Positions 2,770-40,300 of a stretch of DNA of 64,000 nt are shown in pieces. The stretch comes from Umbelopsis ramanniana AG (lineage: Eukaryota; Mucoromycota; Umbelopsidomycetes; Umbelopsidales; Umbelopsidaceae), in assembly GCF_025399195.1 (NCBI RefSeq), contig NW_026252090.1, positions 434,001 to 498,000 of the forward strand, in the 5' to 3' direction. The position numbers and the translations under genes were made by a program. Numbering within the stretch: position 1 is the stretch's first letter; each line of letters begins with the position of its first letter. The notes beneath the pieces are model-generated. The model had not been told where the DNA came from and made no database searches. It saw only the letters and a program-made list of their open reading frames with translations.

Positions 2770-3885
2770 ATGCTAACTTCGTCCTTGCTGACCGCTTCTT
2801 GGCTCGATACTTGTCCTACTGAGATAAGACAATACATATTCAAACTACTCGGACTAAGCCTAGACGCACCCGCTGCCTCCAATACCGATGCTCTACTGGA
2901 TGGTTTCTCACTGTTACTTGCATATCCTCAATTTCTTGACTTATATCAGTACATCAAAGTCTCTCTTGAAGTCTTACCAGCGTTCAACGAAGAAGAGCAG
3001 ATACGGTTCTCGGAATATTCTCTGACTGCAACATTATGCCCAGTAAGCCGAGAGTTACTACACGTACCCAAAGCGGTCTACCTTCAATTAGATTCACTGC
3101 ACTCCAAACAACTTGAAAGAGACTCCATTCGCTTTCAGACCTTGGATTTGTCTCCATACACACATAGCAACGTTCTTCGTCTCTTCCCAAACATATCGTC
3201 AATCACCCTTACTTGCAGCGATACATATACGTACTGTTCATCTCATGAGGTACAACTATGTCAGCTCATTCAGCCTATTGAACATCAACTTCAGGAATTA
3301 CAAATTTCCTTTCCAATTAGTAGCGGAAGTCTGTATGCATCTCTCGTGAAGTGCTTTGTTAACACAAAACTTCAAAAAGTAATCATACAAGGATTCATGA
3401 GTATGGCTAGCGTCAGCTTTTTGAAGGAGCAAAAGCATATACAACATTTTGTGGCTACAGAAGTGAATGGACATGCCTTGGAACAAGTAGTCTGCTACTG
3501 GCCATCAATACATGATCTTGATATAGCGGGTATAGCACTGTTTTCTTCTGCACCAAGCGTCTGTAGGGCCCTTTACCGATGCTCAAATCAACTGAGGAGA
3601 CTGACGCTCAGTGGCACATGTGAAGAAGAAGTTCGTGGATGTTTAGGGTGGATGGCGGAGGATCAAGATGAGGATTCGCTGATCGAAAGTATCTCGGCAG
3701 GCTACAAAGCCGTTATAGGCTGCTGTTCATATCTAACTCACCTTTCCATATCCAAATTCCCAATATGTGGCGAGATACTGCTTCCACTGCTCAAGCAGCG
3801 GTTACGAAAACTTGAGGAATTGGAGTTTGTGTCCAGACCAGCATCGCAGGAGCATAACTCTCTTCCTGTATATCCTTGTACATGA
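2770..3885 (+). CDS. F-box / leucine-rich-repeat-like protein
   Basis: Single-exon ORF of 371 residues with a clean ATG at 2770. The N-terminus (DTCPTEIRQYIFKLL, residues 13-27) resembles the P-x-E-I/L-x-x-x-I-F-x-x-L core of F-box domains, which recruit Skp1 in SCF ubiquitin ligases. The rest carries irregular Leu/Ile-rich repeats (SITLTCSD, IHDLDIAGIAL, LRRLTLSGTC, LTHLSISKFPI) typical of the divergent LRRs that follow F-boxes in fungal proteins. The LRR part presumably binds the substrate, which is unknown. The F-box is degenerate, so the family call rests on the overall pattern. Confidence 0.6.
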   Translation: MLTSSLLTASWLDTCPTEIRQYIFKLLGLSLDAPAASNTDALLDGFSLLLAYPQFLDLYQYIKVSLEVLPAFNEEEQIRFSEYSLTATLCPVSRELLHVPKAVYLQLDSLHSKQLERDSIRFQTLDLSPYTHSNVLRLFPNISSITLTCSDTYTYCSSHEVQLCQLIQPIEHQLQELQISFPISSGSLYASLVKCFVNTKLQKVIIQGFMSMASVSFLKEQKHIQHFVATEVNGHALEQVVCYWPSIHDLDIAGIALFSSAPSVCRALYRCSNQLRRLTLSGTCEEEVRGCLGWMAEDQDEDSLIESISAGYKAVIGCCSYLTHLSISKFPICGEILLPLLKQRLRKLEELEFVSRPASQEHNSLPVYPCT

Positions 3886-4270: not shown

Positions 4271-5200
4271 ATGAGTGATCAGACAATAGAATCGGATGCG
4301 CACATTGTTTTCTTCGGAATGCATATCGAACTATACCAGTGGATAGCTTTCTTTGCTGGAGCTCAGATGGTGAGAATCGCATTGGAAAGTACTTGTGGTA
4401 TGATCGGAGCCATTGGAAACTCATTCAACTCTACTTTTTTGGTCAGGTTCGACTGGCTTGGGAGGCATGGATGTCATTTCGCGCAAAGACTCCCAGTAAG
4501 AATTGAATCTAGTTACGCTTGACATGTAGAATCTGTATCATGTACTCACCTACCTTAGCCTATTTATCTAACTTGACAGTCCCAATCCTTTACGTGGGCT
4601 ACTCGCTCAGTTTACTATTAGTGGTTGTATCTTGTGCGTCGTTGTATATGATCAAGAAGGTAACAAAGGAGATCTCCCTTTTGCTCAAACCATATCTCGA
4701 AAAGGATATCGGAAGGTTACTTACTGAATACTGCTGAAATTACCATTTAGAAATTCATCAAAGGGGTTATCATCACCGCCTATCTGAGCTATGCTTTGAC
4801 AGTGTTGAGCTTTGCCGACTCATTGACGACTTTGATTGCCACAGTCATAGCTAGAGATCAACGTGTCGCAACTTGTGCCAGCCTGTACCTTGACACTCCT
4901 CCGTGCCCAGGATGTGACACCCATCAGTTCTGTGCTGAAATCATCACAGCATCGATAATGTGGCAATCTCTCGGTGTTGTTTTCAACCTTGTCATCAATG
5001 TGAGTATCTACAAATCCGCTATCACCTAGTATACAGCAATATCTGACTCGACCTCTTTCTAGTTGTTCCTATCACTTGGAATTCATCAACATTGCATCCA
5101 AACGAAGAAAGTTGGCAAGATAAACAACGATGAAAAACCCACTGTTGATTTCAAAGTCGACCTGGACGCTGAAGGCTTTCAAGTTGTGGAGTTGAAATAA
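4271..5200 (+). CDS. Small multi-span membrane protein, unknown function
   Basis: Five exons give a 211-residue protein: 4271-4369, 4447-4495, 4559-4659, 4751-4999 and 5063-5200. All introns are GT-AG and the summed length is in frame. Hydrophobic segments occur in exon 1 (YQWIAFFAGAQM), exon 3 (VPILYVGYSLSLLLVVVSCA), exon 4 (VIITAYLSYALTVLSFA) and across the exon 4/5 junction (LGVVFNLVINLFLSLGIH), so about four membrane spans. The loop before the last span has four Cys (CASLYLDTPPCPGCDTHQFC), suggesting disulfides in an extracytosolic loop. The C-terminal tail is short, charged and cytosolic. No family is recognised. A tetraspan topology does not make it a tetraspanin, because the CCG motif is absent. 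Confidence 0.6.
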
Positions 5201-5606
5201 TCTTTACAATTCATTACCATTCATTACCCTTTTTACCACTCAGTATCGCATTGTTACCCCTTAACCATTTACAGAAAACGAAAAATACACCACTCACCTA
5301 GTTTGACGGGTTGTGATCCATTGTATCCACATCTACCCTATGATCACTCATATTGCATCACGCAACGTTGAGCTAGTGCAAATTCACGTTTATTTGTGCA
5401 TAAAATTTACAGCAATTGTGAAAGCATGCCTTTATAAACGCCTCTTCTCCATCCAATCGCAAAGGCTTTGTAATGTAAAGATCAACAAATAACAGCAGAA
5501 ACTATAAATCGAACTGTGTGTACATAAGGAATGGTGTTGGTGTTGAGAAGACTTTGTGAAAAACAAACAGTGTGGCAGTTAATTTATTAGCATGACGAGA
5601 ACATGT
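5201..5606. other. Intergenic between convergent genes
   Basis: About 400 bp between the 3' ends of the upstream membrane-protein gene and the putative minus-strand orphan gene. No coding signal was seen. Short AT-rich stretches probably hold polyadenylation signals. Confidence 0.4.
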
Positions 5607-34459: not shown

Positions 34460-35564
34460 TAGAAATGTGTCTGGGTCATCGAAGAAAAAACGTCTAACAA
34501 CGCGACGGTCATCCAAATCGTGTTAGCTTGAGTCACGTGGACGTCCACAGCTTTGGGCTTTCAACGCTTCACGAAAGCTGTTTTTTTTAGCGGCATGAGA
34601 CCATAGACTGACTGACATGAATACGGCGAGATAAACTGCTTTGACTAGACATGTTGAGATGTTCCAATTATTTTCAGAAGTAATTCTCTTCTTTGGTTAT
34701 ACTAGAACTGAATGATTTTGAAAGGCTACTAAGGCCTGAGTGTGATTATATAGGAAAGAGCAACGAGGAAACATGAAATTTATCTCAGCCATTTCAGAAA
34801 CCCGTCTGTATGTCGTAGTTTTGTGATGACCTCCTCCAATATACCAGTAATTGTTGTAGATGTTAGCTACAGTAACTCCATAACTTATGCAGGTAGTTGA
34901 TGTCAACACACATATTTTATAACGATCCACCGTATGGCTACTGAAGATCTCAAAAAACAGATATCTTTGATTTAGTTTCCAAACAAACAAAGGAAAATCT
35001 TTTCATGCAGTAGTGGCGTATGTTTACATTACTGTAGATCTTTGGCGGCAGGTAATTGTTATAGCGAACTAAATCATGATCAAGGTAGAAATTCGTGTTA
35101 CGGGATAAAATTTCCAGGAAGAGCCAGCGGTTGCTATCCTGCTGCAGAAGTGAGAACGTACGATGTATGCGCACATAAACTGGGTTGAACTTTTGCTACT
35201 TGTTATTTATTTTATTATCTTAAGCAAGAGTCTCGTATTTTAGATTTTGGTGAGTGTTTTCTTTTGGGGAGCAAAGTAAAAAAAGACTTTCACCCAGTTG
35301 TTTGTCGTCTTCTTCCTGCATGATAGATTGGTCTTTTCCGGTAGAAGATGCAATGGTAAGCATAATGGAGAGAATGCCTGAAGGAACGTCATCCTAGATG
35401 CTGTAATGATTATTGACGAATTCTTTATAATAAAATGAGTCTGATGTGTTGTATGATAAGGTGCCATGTTAAATAATTATGTCCGCTGAAGAAAATACTA
35501 TAAGAACTGGGTAAAATCCCCTCTTTTTTTTGCGTCTTGACCATGCAAAATTTAACGAGGAACA
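34460..35564. other. Intergenic, no supported gene
   Basis: AT-rich 1.1 kb upstream of ATR. Minus-strand frames at 34697-34990 and 34950-35174 are free of low complexity but show no family motif and no convincing splice link. Confidence 0.4.
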
Positions 35565-36900
35565 GCTCTGGTAAATCAGAGCGCGCATACATAGTAGCTT
35601 TAAAGCGCTACTTGCTACAGAAGCACCCCGCCAAACTTCACCCTCCAATACCCACGCTCTCGTCCTTCTCTCCCACTGTTTCGTTGGCGTCCTAGGCCAA
35701 TAGCTGTGGACATGCCACCCCTCGATGTTCCTACGGACATCGACCAGCCTCATGAGCTAGAGGCGGTGGACATTCCACCGCCCCGGGACTCCCAACCCAA
35801 CCATAGGGCATGGACATCCGTCCACCCTTTCTGTGCCGTCGTAGCCGCTGGGAATGTTCTATTCCCAGTGATCGATCCCCTTCTGGTCTCCCGCGTGGAC
35901 TTTTGTCTTCGGCTTCCCATTCTCCTCCTGTGCGTTGGCCTCGCATCCTTCTGTTGTTCTTGTGTCTTGCGTTGTCTCTTCTCCCACCATTTCTGCGCCC
36001 TGCGGTGTATCTTCTCCCGCTTCTGTTCGTGAACCCTGTAGTGTTTGGTCACCTCGCGCCATTTTGGCTGTTGCTCATTCTCCGTCTTCCTCGTCTCCGG
36101 ATTTTTCGGTTGCTGCTTCGCCTCTGCCTTTTTCTTCTTCTTCTCGCTTGGCTTCTCCTGCTCCTGCCGGCCCTTCGCCCGGATAAGGCAAGGGTAAGGA
36201 AGTTGAGCGTACGCTTGCACCTTTTGCGACTTTACGTGCTCCTCTTCTTTTGCTGGCTCGTCGCCTCAGAGTACTCCCTGTTTGTCAGGCAAATTTCCTG
36301 AGAGTGGGTCTCTCAGGAAGATAGCGATGCCCACTGGTCGCTTTGCCTTTAGTTCGCGGAAGGTTTACCTTCTGCCAAGATTTTTTCTTCTTCTTCGCGC
36401 TTCCGTATCCTGCGCCTTCGGCATTGCGCCGTTGGGTTTGTCGTCGGTTGGCGGTGCTAATGCAACATGCTGGCTCAGTGTTGCAACCCGCCACTCCCTT
36501 CATTCCTTTTTCTCCACCTTCGTTGGCTCATTCTGCTCTTTTGCCTTCCGTGGCTCTTAACGCCACCACCACGATGAATTGCGGGACGGTACTCCTCCTT
36601 CCATGGCATCCTGGGACAGGATGATTATCCCACTAGAGGCTGAGGCCAATCTCAGCCCAGCGAATGGTCCTGTCTGCGTGCCTATCGGACGTTGAAGTCG
36701 TAATTAGCCCTTTATACTCTCTAATCAAACTGCCTGGGAAAACAATTTGTTAACATTTTACTCTATCTTCAGGTCGTCGACACACTCCAGCCCCTTGGAT
36801 AATTTCCAAGGGCTGAGAGGGAGGAGCAGAACCTCCGACCACCGCTTGCCGTCCTTGAGGACTACGGTCCCTCGGACGTAAGTACCTAACTTTTAGTTAG
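35565..36900. repeat. Array of short perfect hairpins around an S/P-rich decayed frame
   Basis: Perfect inverted repeats with 3-8 nt loops occur repeatedly: GCTCTG/CAGAGC (35565-35582), AGTAGC/GCTACT (35593-35612), TCGATGT/ACATCGA (35722-35743), GGCGGTGGA/TCCACCGCC (35762-35782), TGGAC/GTCCA (35811-35824), CTGGGAAT/ATTCCCAG (35848-35868), TTCCTGAGAG/CTCTCAGGAA (36295-36319), CATCCTG/CAGGATG (36607-36623), GGCTGAG/CTCAGCC (36638-36657), CCCTTGGA/TCCAAGGG (36792-36812), GTCC/GGAC twice (36851-36877) and CTAACT/AGTTAG (36886-36900). The arms are unrelated in sequence, so this is not a tandem repeat. The hairpins form two blocks flanking a Ser/Pro-rich, GC-richer stretch (35870-36290). Function is unknown; see findings. 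Confidence 0.75.
35712..36620 (+). pseudogene. Interrupted Ser/Pro-rich coding-like region, possibly a mobile-element remnant
   Basis: Composition differs from the flanks (GC-rich, C/T-rich). Plus-strand frames give Pro/Ser-rich protein-like text in pieces: MPPLDVPTDIDQPHELEAVD (from 35712), then in another frame SSPTISAPCGVSSPASVREP (about 35975-36035), then after an in-frame TAA at 36184 GKGKEVERTLAPFATLRAP. A low-complexity basic stretch such as GKGKEVE after a Ser/Pro linker would fit a Gag-like or ORF1-like protein of a retroelement broken by frameshifts, but no reverse transcriptase, integrase or long terminal repeat is visible. It may equally be noncoding. Confidence 0.25.
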
Positions 36901-37313
36901 TTACGCATAAAGCCATAATTAAAGTTAGATCACTTGGATGTTTTCGCTGCTTATTGTCGGAAAAGACATATGGAATAAAGGGAGAGGTTACAAATGACAT
37001 CAATATATTGCAAAGCACGTACTCAAGTAACATAACTTTTCGGCCTCAATTCAATAATGCAAAGATGGTTACCTTACATGCGCTCAGAGTCTCACATTGC
37101 TCAATTGTACTTTCCTATAAAGTAAAATTCAGCTTGTCAAAATACTTGTCGGCTCGGCTCGGCTTTGTGCCTAAACCTAAGTTGAACCCTGATATCTTTC
37201 TATTCAAGTGTTACCCAGCTGCAAACTCATGCAAATCAGAATGAAAGCAATTACTTCATTTACAATGATTTGAAACGCTGTTCTAGATATTTAATATTAC
37301 ACTATATATTATG
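36901..37313. other. Intergenic, CSB 3' flank
   Basis: About 410 bp, AT-rich, with no coding signal. Confidence 0.35.
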
Positions 37314-40300
37314 CTAGTAGTACTCCTCTTTGAGCACCCACATACCGCGTCCAGGCTGGTCTTCGGAGCCCTCCCGCTCAAATCGCGCAATGGCTTGGAG
37401 CATTTTACGAAAGACGACAACATTTTCCTTTGGAACTTCAATCTGTAGATTGTTGATTATATCGGTACTTGAAGCTATACCACCATGATCGTAAAGATAG
37501 TCTCGTATCTTGACAATCAACCCTTCTCGATTTGATTCATTGAGCACTATATCCGGCGCTATCATTGAACGACACTATGGTTAGCAACGCATTCACCGTA
37601 CTTTAAAGATAGACGTGACGCTTACAGCTAATACTGATACTGGATGGCGAAGATCCCGCTTCTTGTTCCAGAGCCTTCCTCTCCTTCATTTGTGCCAACA
37701 AGTCGCCTGAGCTAGCAACTGGTGGTTTCCTACTTGCTTCAATTCCTTTGAATCCTGACACTTTACCCGCTCCAAATCGAGGAGATCCACTAGGAGATAA
37801 ACTAGATTGTTTCTGCCCTGATAATGCTGGTCGAACCTTGGATCCAAAACGTGGTGGTGGTGTTGATGAAGGTCTAGGCGCTCCAGCAAATCCTACAACA
37901 GGTATTGTTGATGAGACATGAATCCAATTAGGAAATTGCATCCAGCATATTTTGCCTTACCAGAACGACCTGTCCAAGTTGGAGTGCCTATCTGTACACG
38001 GTTCAATCGTCTCCTAGACTCCTTTAATGCTTCTGCAGCTCTATCCGCGATTCGACTCGCTAAATATATTCTTATTAGAAACAGCAAACGGAACCGGCTT
38101 TCATGAGATATAGGTTACCTTCACGATCAACAATCATTTTCTCTTGATCTGCCCCATCTACAATTTGATCATGCTGTATAGCGCTTTGAATTCCGGTCAT
38201 TTCGAATAAGCTGCTTAGAATGTTGTCGCCATTTTCATTATCATCACTATCTCCATGACTTTCATCTTCCTTTGTTTGGCTGAAAGTGCGCAGTAAGTAT
38301 AAGCTTTTGTATAGGGTATGTTTGCATCTGATGACTTACTATTTCTCCAGTTTACTAACGCCTTCTAACGCTCGCAAGTTCTCGGCGCTGTCGTCATTCT
38401 CATCATGCGACTTTATAGTTTTCTTCTTCTTTGACTTTTGCTTTGGACGAGCTATAATTTCAGAGTCCTTAAAAAGGCTGCCAGTTTCCGTTCCAGCGGC
38501 ATCATCTGTCGACAGGGTGAATAAGTTTTGTAAATTGCTAGCCTATAAGATAGAAGTAATGAGTATCATTTTCTGAAAACCCGATTAATTTTCGGAGCAA
38601 CACTCACATCAAAAAATCTCTTTTGCTTTGGATCCTTCAATATCTTGTTGGTCAAAAATTGTTTGAAAATTTGTCTATGGTAGATCTTCTCCTCAATGGT
38701 TCCACTGGTCATCAGTCTGTAAACTGTCACACTTTTCTTCTGACCCAATCTCCACGCTCTCTCTCGTGCTTGTACATCAGTAGATGGATTCTGGTATATG
38801 TAAGGTTATAATGATATTTTCATAAAGAACCATTTATAAAAATGTGCGTATAGCTTACCCAGTCAGGATCGAAGATGATGACTCTGTCTGCACCAGTCAG
38901 ATTGAGACCGAGACCGCCGACTTTCGTGGTGAGCAGGAAGACAAAAATATCCTTATTGGCGTTATACTGATCAACCATTGTCATTCTATTTTGAATAGCA
39001 GTAGTTCCATCCATTCTAAAATACTGGTAGTCCAATGACTTGATCATCTTTTCAAGGATATCCAGCATTTGCCTGGTCTGGCTAAATAGCAGAACTCTAT
39101 GACCTTCTTTCTTCCACAAGGATAACAATGCTTTCACGACCACCATCTTGCCACTCTTCTCTGGATCGCCATAATTTGGGTCCTGACGAAAGATATTAAC
39201 GCCGAATGTTTCTTAATAATCATTTTTTAAGTTGCTCTTACCTCGTTTGCTCTTTCACGATGCAGAATGTCCGGGTGATTACAAATCTTACGAACAATAT
39301 CGATACCAAAAAGTACTTGTCGTCTACCAGCCATGATAGAATCCATTTCTTTCGATTTGATGAATTCCTCGTATGCCCTACGCTGTGAAACCGTCAACTT
39401 GCAAAACAGCACCTTGATAAAATAGCATGTTAATGTTGTGCACAGGAAGCCATAGTACATACTTCAACCTGTAGACCAACCTGTTCGCTTTTTTTTGGAA
39501 GATCCGACGCTACGTCTGCTTTCATTCGCCTCAAAAGATAAGGGTTGATCAGGTCTCGAAGGACGCAAGCACATTTGTATGCGGTTTGAACTTGGACGTT
39601 CGTTGCATTTGCATAGCCTCCGATATTGATAGGTACTGAGAATTGAGTTTGGAACACTGGTAAAGTCTGGAAAAATTGATAAATCAGTTACGAACTGCGA
39701 CTTAGACGAATTCACTGGAGCGTCACCTACTCCAAGTCTGCCAGGGAAGACGAAATCGAACAAGGACCAAAGCTCAGCAAGGTTGTTCTGTATTGGTGTT
39801 CCCGATAATATCATTCTATGTGGTGTCTGGAATAAGACAGTCAGTATTTGAGAAACCGCCAAACATAGCATTGATTGTATATCGCAATACCTTCAACTGC
39901 TTGCACGATAGGGTAACTTCGGAATCTGGATTGCGGATCTTGTGTCCTTCGTCTAATACAACATATCCCCACTTGCGTCGAACAAGGATTTCACGATACG
40001 ATCGTACACCAGCGTACGTTGTGACTATTACACCACCTAAATTATTACATTAGAACATGGGATTCGTACCTTTCTGTACAGACTCCAAACTCTTACCATT
40101 TTGATAATAACGATCTACTAAAGCTGCTGCCATCCTTCCGGTCCTTGTCGTCAGAATACTGACTCTGGACTTTGCTACCTTTTTACTTCCTTTGACACGA
40201 AGTCGTCTATCCTTGTACCGCTCATCATCTTCGTTATCGTCTTCGTCGATATGAAAGTTTTTAAGCATTTCTTCCTCATACTCGTCCAGATCTTGATCGC

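Follow-up and report, generated by a model that had tools for sequence, protein, structure and literature searches.

Coding transcripts that carry conserved RNA structure are a known kind. The enod40 RNA of plants has conserved structured domains and also short open reading frames (ORFs), local mRNA folding is selected in coding sequences, RNA viruses have ordered RNA structure at genome scale, and small inversions in plastomes have been linked to hairpins. In Saccharomyces cerevisiae, the spliced product of RPL32 folds into a structure that is bound by the encoded protein (PMC5640933). Here we describe a gene family of Umbelopsis ramanniana that is unusual in how far the fold extends, in that it overlaps a long ORF, and in that it depends on splicing. 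The family resembles RPL32 in having structured RNA inside the gene's own transcript, but the RPL32 structure is a single regulatory element, whereas the Umbelopsis family is structured from coding exon 1 to exon 4, and binding of the RNA by the encoded protein is for this family a proposal. Whereas enod40 carries short ORFs, the family has a long one that the structure overlaps (three copies have 309, 615, and 718 codons up to the stop). What it shares with selected coding folds and with RNA viruses is structure beyond codon usage; the differences are specific helices, compensatory changes across splice junctions, and a nuclear gene family as the setting. As with the small inversions of plastomes, hairpin tips are inverted between relatives, but the Umbelopsis case is nuclear and the inversion a side effect at most. 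A literature search gave nothing on the family in the titles and abstract openings among the matches listed, which is weak evidence of absence, and neither Umbelopsis nor Mucor occurs in the main text of two papers on fungal structured RNAs (PMC8216456 and PMC5640933).

Results

A hairpin cluster in a broken gene copy

The window, by which we mean the whole 64,000-nt stretch that was analyzed (contig NW_026252090.1 of U. ramanniana AG, positions 434,001 to 498,000), contains a cluster of short hairpins at 35565–36900. We counted non-overlapping perfect stems with arms of at least 6 bp and loops of 3–8 nt and compared the counts with 300 dinucleotide-preserving shuffles. We found 10 stems of at least 6 bp (shuffle mean 1.24), 7 of at least 7 bp (0.24), 4 of at least 8 bp (0.09), 2 of at least 9 bp (0.03), and 1 of 10 bp (0.003). 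None of the 300 shuffles reached the observed count at any of the first four thresholds, and 1 of 300 did so for the 10-bp stem. The first-pass annotation had reported a stem excess over chance and had named equally stem-rich shuffled sequence as its refutation; the excess survived this control, the 10-bp stem, the 9-bp stem, and the two 8-bp stems that it listed were all found on recount, and the arms of the hairpins are, as it had stated, unrelated to one another. When the whole window was divided into 1336-base tiles ranked by the number of stems of at least 8 bp (then at least 7 and at least 6), the top three tiles overlapped the hairpin locus. The density of stems of at least 7 bp was 5.3 per kb in 35557–36877 (7 in 1321 nt) versus 0.24 per kb elsewhere in the window (15 in 62,050 nt outside 35001–37000). 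These results confirm that the hairpin cluster is real.

The interval had been described as gene-free, with a frameshifted Ser/Pro-coding stretch between the hairpins. That stretch is present, and the interval is a broken gene copy: judged by its alignment to the intact gene on contig C23 (73% identity over 35126–35929 and 71% over 35968–36895), the segment is a 3'-truncated, frame-broken member of a Ser/Pro/Arg-rich gene family (Table 1). In its exon-1-like part the start codon is aligned to AGG, several 1-nt indels are present, and each frame contains 8–9 stops; the 5' splice site of intron 1 is changed (GTAATTAG). Family homology ends inside intron 2, and the window copy is therefore without exon 3 and the stop-codon hairpin. 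The flanks of the copy do not share the fold of its exon-like parts (z +0.3 and +1.4). Most of the stems lie in exon-like parts; the 6-bp stem at the right edge lies in an intron relic and is probably outside the structure. The window copy and C23 differ by 267 substitutions, yet 6 stems of at least 7 bp remain, whereas random placement of the substitutions left a mean of 0.4 and reached 6 in 0 of 300 trials. Thus, the substitutions between the two copies spare or rebuild perfect stems far beyond random placement. Pair-by-pair covariation of the predicted exon-1 pairs between the same two copies was at chance level whichever copy supplied the direction of the test (263 of 2000 permutations one way and 820 of 2000 the other).

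Table 1. Parts of the window copy and its perfect hairpins (positions in the window)
Feature	Position	Strand	Remarks
Whole duplicated segment: upstream flank, exon-1-like part, intron 1, exon-2-like part, start of intron 2	35126–36910	+	Homologous to intact C23 gene; last ~15 bases by eye
Exon-1-like part	35558–36699	+	Fold z -4.1 versus shuffles
Hairpin, 6 bp, adjoining lost start codon	35565–35582	+	None at C23 counterpart
Hairpin, 6 bp	35593–35612	+	C5, C26, C42, C101: hairpin at same codons in other register (by eye)
Hairpin, 7 bp	35722–35743	+	Counterpart is a 9-bp hairpin of C23
Hairpin, 9 bp	35762–35782	+	Tip CAT, inverted relative to C23 (ATG)
Hairpin, 8 bp	35848–35868	+	3' arm starts at deletion breakpoint of C23-type repeats; absent from C23
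Hairpin, 10 bp	36295–36319	+	C23 counterpart has 11 bp; inverted tip matches at 4 of 5 bases
Hairpin, 7 bp	36607–36623	+	From perfect-stem count
Hairpin, 7 bp	36638–36657	+	From perfect-stem count
Intron 1 relic (GTAATTAG...CAG)	36700–36772	+	Unstructured, z +0.6
Exon-2-like part	36773–36877	+	Fold z -3.1
Hairpin, 8 bp, exon-2-like part	36792–36812	+	Homologous to helix of family consensus
Intron 2 start (GTAAGT)	36878–36910	+	Family homology stops here
Stem, 6 bp, intron 2 relic	36886–36900	+	From perfect-stem count

A multicopy family with a long ORF

A search of the same genome for copies, as the first-pass annotation had proposed, yielded at least eight more. Structure was examined in six of these, and hairpins occur at more than one site. 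The genome of U. ramanniana thus holds at least nine family copies (the window copy, C23, C101, C5, C26, C42, C54, C52, and C14). C23 is an intact gene whose exon 1 runs for 549 codons without a stop, and exon 1 is stop-free for 652 and 240 codons in the other two intact copies (C101 and C5). The length of exon 2 is a multiple of three in all six copies (141, 141, 150, 150, 144, and 156 nt), and exon 4, which follows the stop codon, has 60–62 nt. We conclude from the stop-free exon 1 of three copies, the exon 2 lengths, and relatives in other Umbelopsis that the family ORF is real and under selection.

A protein predicted from C23 has a public database entry, as a hypothetical protein of U. 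ramanniana AG. Related proteins with a source name are all from Umbelopsis, with P0003–P0006, P0009–P0011, and P0013 belonging to U. vinacea and U. sp. AD052 (P0008 and P0012 stand outside this count), a limited statement because only ~7980 candidates sharing most words were scored in the protein searches. Seven family proteins (P0001, P0003, P0005, P0009, P0010, P0012, and P0013) had no Pfam match, and a search of Rfam at E ≤ 1 with the unspliced DNA of window positions 34500–38000 and of four copies' loci gave no match. A comparison of two environmental relatives with viral contigs gave nothing. Ser, Pro, and Arg are abundant in the protein, which has a conserved N-terminal region rich in Arg and is probably disordered. 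An AlphaFold prediction for P0003 with 11 relatives carries little weight because the mean pLDDT was 45; its sole predicted element is a helix at residues 4–22. In Umbelopsis vinacea, P0005 and P0010 come from contigs of equal size with locus tags 11 apart, and the family may therefore be clustered.

Introns of 65–93 nt were placed by hand in six copies from splice-site motifs and the alignment. C54, which is broken, has two non-canonical predicted donors, GTTAG at intron 2 and AT at intron 4. The database model of C23 (P0002) agrees by eye with hand-placed junctions 1, 2, and 7 and with the first junction of the 3' units; contrary to hand-placed junction 3, it skips the stop-codon hairpin through another splice. 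By eye, the peptide that the stop-codon hairpin encodes forms the end of models P0003, P0004, and P0009. In C23, C101, and C5, the structured exons are followed by a series of short exons that are very rich in A, with introns between them. The end of the C23 gene (L009:1813-2866) consists of 5.4 tandem copies of a 196-bp exon-plus-intron unit, and the spliced junctions of these units form hairpins, one of them a perfect 10-bp stem. C54 carries a long inverted repeat: a part of its exon 1 recurs downstream in inverted orientation (L033, oriented ~3400–3550 and 5200–5500, by eye).

Spliced exons fold and introns do not

We computed minimum free energy (MFE) z scores for the six copies with placed introns. 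Spliced exons 2–4 were strongly folded (z -7.3 for C23, -9.6 for C101, -8.3 for C5, -6.9 for C26, -8.4 for C54, and -3.1 for C14), whereas the concatenated introns 1–4 of the same copies gave z of -1.9 to +1.5. In all six copies, unspliced exons 2–4 were less extreme by z than the spliced form. Perfect stems of at least 7 bp numbered 19 in 6746 nt of spliced exon versus 0 in 2716 nt of intron (35 introns). Exon 1 was compared with 100 codon shuffles that keep the same protein and the same codons, giving z of -9.9 (C23), -3.5 (C101), and -6.3 (C5); for control genes, namely eight single-exon stretches of ordinary window genes (two of them cut to 1647 nt) with 60 shuffles each, all eight values fell between -1.0 and +0.7. 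We conclude that the exon 1 fold is not explained by the protein or by codon usage.

The structure is not uniform along the gene or specific to one strand in single-sequence folds. Exon 8 of C23 was folded (z -3.6); exon 7 of C5 (z -0.7), exons 8–9 of C5 (z -1.4), and the leaders around the start codon in the three copies tested had no significant structure. Single-sequence folds showed no clear strand bias, the antisense strand being as strong as the sense strand (z -7.4, -12.2, -7.4, -7.0, -7.0, and -4.3). With pairs defined in a manner free of strand bias, G-U and A-C cells were not clearly unequal (24 versus 27, 33 versus 13, 21 versus 20, 21 versus 32, 42 versus 17, and 15 versus 12).

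Compensatory change in spliced exons 2–4

The spliced exons 2–4 of the six copies were aligned (alignment A2), to the exclusion of the window copy, C42, and C52, in which parts are lacking or lost. The consensus fold has 77 pairs and an energy of -95.6 kcal/mol, compared with -29.9 ± 3.8 kcal/mol for column shuffles. In the consensus, 92.4% of cells pair, and 19 of the 77 pairs and 28 cells change on both sides; consensus pairing, two-sided pairs, and two-sided cells were each reached by 0 of 500 shuffles. The count of further pair types was the one measure of covariation, out of five, that stayed at the shuffle level (43 versus 42.5). Structures slid by 1–3 columns had at most 7 two-sided pairs versus 19, a comparison that favors the consensus because the structure was derived from the same alignment. 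The consensus was stronger in the sense than in the antisense direction (-95.6 versus -78.7). These sequences are paralogues from one genome with pairwise identities of 55–95%, and C101/C54 (90%) and C5/C26 (95%) are near-duplicates, so that the effective depth is about four lineages. The stop-codon hairpin (helix 5) is paired in every cell that has letters, and in C101 it is a 14-bp stem of which both arms are unlike those of C5, with changed amino acids. From the codon shuffles and the covariation, we conclude that RNA structure is conserved beyond the protein.

Predicted pairing across splice junctions

In 11 of 12 cases at junctions 1 and 2, the two bases that splicing joins lie in one uninterrupted stack of pairs, bridging introns of 73–93 nt; the exception is junction 1 of C14, which pairs poorly, as does junction 2 of C54. 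The exact junction was the best of 17 offsets in 7 of the 12 cases. Among the perfect stems with 7 bp or more, three reach over a junction; C101 has two of these and C54 the third. When exon ends were permuted among copies, the pairing of the cognate combination was reached by 2 of 720 permutations at junction 1 and 3 of 720 at junction 2, the cognate one included. Junction 3 gave no cognate signal (72 of 720), partly because its stem is almost invariant, and when the six tandem 3' units of C23 were compared informally, pairing was not best for cognate ends.

Junctions also lie near hairpin tips. After 11 of 43 junctions had been dropped as A-rich, 26 of the remaining 32 had a hairpin loop, with 4 or more pairs across, no more than 3 nt away, versus 42% of 842 other positions in the same RNAs, although the copies are not independent; the measure is coarse because ordinary coding sequence has hairpin tips at 41% of 801 positions. 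Taken together, the junction results favor selection on the spliced RNA over palindromes in DNA.

Hairpin tips inverted between copies

Three homologous hairpins have tips that are inverted between copies (ATG/CAT, GCCCA/TGGGT in 4 of 5 bases, and TAC/GTA). Tips are unlike in 43 of 54 pairs of homologous hairpins, and for 10 of these 43 the reverse complement is a closer match than the direct sequence.

Discussion

The hairpin locus is a broken duplicate of a gene whose family probably keeps its spliced coding RNA folded as a train of hairpins, and we consider it quite likely that the structure of the mature RNA is itself what is selected. Exonic structure, covariation, junction continuity, and coding constraint are all computed here. 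The suggestion that the hairpins could be a structured RNA fares well when moved to the gene family and its spliced transcript, where folding, codon shuffles, covariation, and junction tests agree, and poorly for a free-standing array. In our model, a multi-exon transcript would code for the Ser/Pro/Arg-rich protein, and its splicing would give short hairpins along exon 1, exons 2–3, the stop codon, and exon 4, some of which would form only once the introns are removed. Selection would act on the folded mature RNA, with stems that cross junctions, arms that change together, and introns that stay unstructured; that this RNA is folded in vivo, and to some functional end, is our inference. The window copy keeps hairpins of exons 1–2, but its start codon, reading frame, exon 3, and 3' portion are gone.

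A more far-reaching version is tentative and, in our judgment, doubtful: in a family specific to the genus, a single sequence would encode both a protein and an RNA folded over the length of the gene as successive hairpins. Introns would sit at hairpin tips or close to them, and splicing would thereby finish the fold; the RNA would be the main product and the protein its partner, and copies might lose the ORF and keep hairpins, as in exons 1–2 of the window copy. As to function, the simplest proposal would have the family protein bind its own RNA, the fold serving as a cis-acting platform for the Arg-rich protein in autoregulation or in the formation of an RNP; this is our best guess, although we hold it to be less likely than not. 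If the reading of a selected, folded mature RNA is right, a nuclear gene family is under very strong dual constraint, with a fold that spans a coding exon, the stop codon, and splice junctions, and it offers a natural test of the coevolution of protein and RNA structure and of the benefit of a hairpin-rich mature mRNA. The compensatory non-synonymous changes in the stop-codon hairpin (C101 versus C5) make an RNA-first hypothesis directly testable.

The alternatives differ in where the stems would be made and for what. Stems could be made and perfected in DNA by template switching or fold-back synthesis (quasi-palindrome correction), in which case no selection on RNA would be needed. The inverted tips, the unlike tips that match better as reverse complements, the window stem at a deletion breakpoint, and the lack of clear strand bias in single folds and G-U cells all fit such a process, and so does the window copy, which, though broken, has the densest perfect stems. 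However, a process in DNA should treat introns like other sequence, yet they contain no perfect stem of at least 7 bp; nearly all stacks at junctions 1 and 2 continue over introns and the exon ends coevolve across introns 1 and 2, and the consensus is stronger in the sense direction. We therefore regard an origin in DNA alone as improbable. Lower still is the probability that the stems serve splicing, complementary exon ends bracketing the introns and holding the splice sites together while the other hairpins are by-products. The excess of junctions near hairpin tips would be expected of it, with copies that are not independent, but that measure is coarse, much of the structure lies away from junctions (as in exon 1 and the stop-codon hairpin), and spliced exons 2–4 fold better by z than unspliced ones in all six copies.

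Comparably improbable is a selfish or mobile element that needs structured RNA for its spread, the nine copies being insertions; the first-pass annotation had suggested the structured region of a mobile element. The family is multicopy, several copies are broken, and the named relatives are confined to one genus, all of which such an element would show. Against it stand the gene content and the form of the copies: no transposase, reverse transcriptase, or integrase was found in the seven family proteins, in 10 ORFs beside the C5 and C23 copies, or in nine window ORFs, and introns are kept in the six copies in which they were placed, and the upstream sequence is common to the window copy and C23, so that these copies are DNA duplicates. 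A source of small RNAs, with hairpins feeding Dicer, has in its favor the longer composite stems of exons 2–3; the perfect stems of the copies reach 14 bp at most, which is short for Dicer, and we give this reading very little credence. Chance or base composition has no point in its favor, is contradicted by the shuffle, codon-shuffle, slide, and column-shuffle controls, and has a negligible probability.

Selection on the folded mature RNA, the reading that we prefer, leaves room for events in DNA, and template switching at the DNA level probably adds to the hairpin pattern. The description of the locus as a hotspot of templated hairpin formation is borne out to this limited extent, by three inverted tips and one stem at a deletion breakpoint. 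The tips that are inverted between copies suggest flipping of hairpin tips in nuclear DNA, and the hairpin at 35848–35868, whose 3' arm lies at the deletion of C23-type repeats, resembles a fold-back templated insertion.
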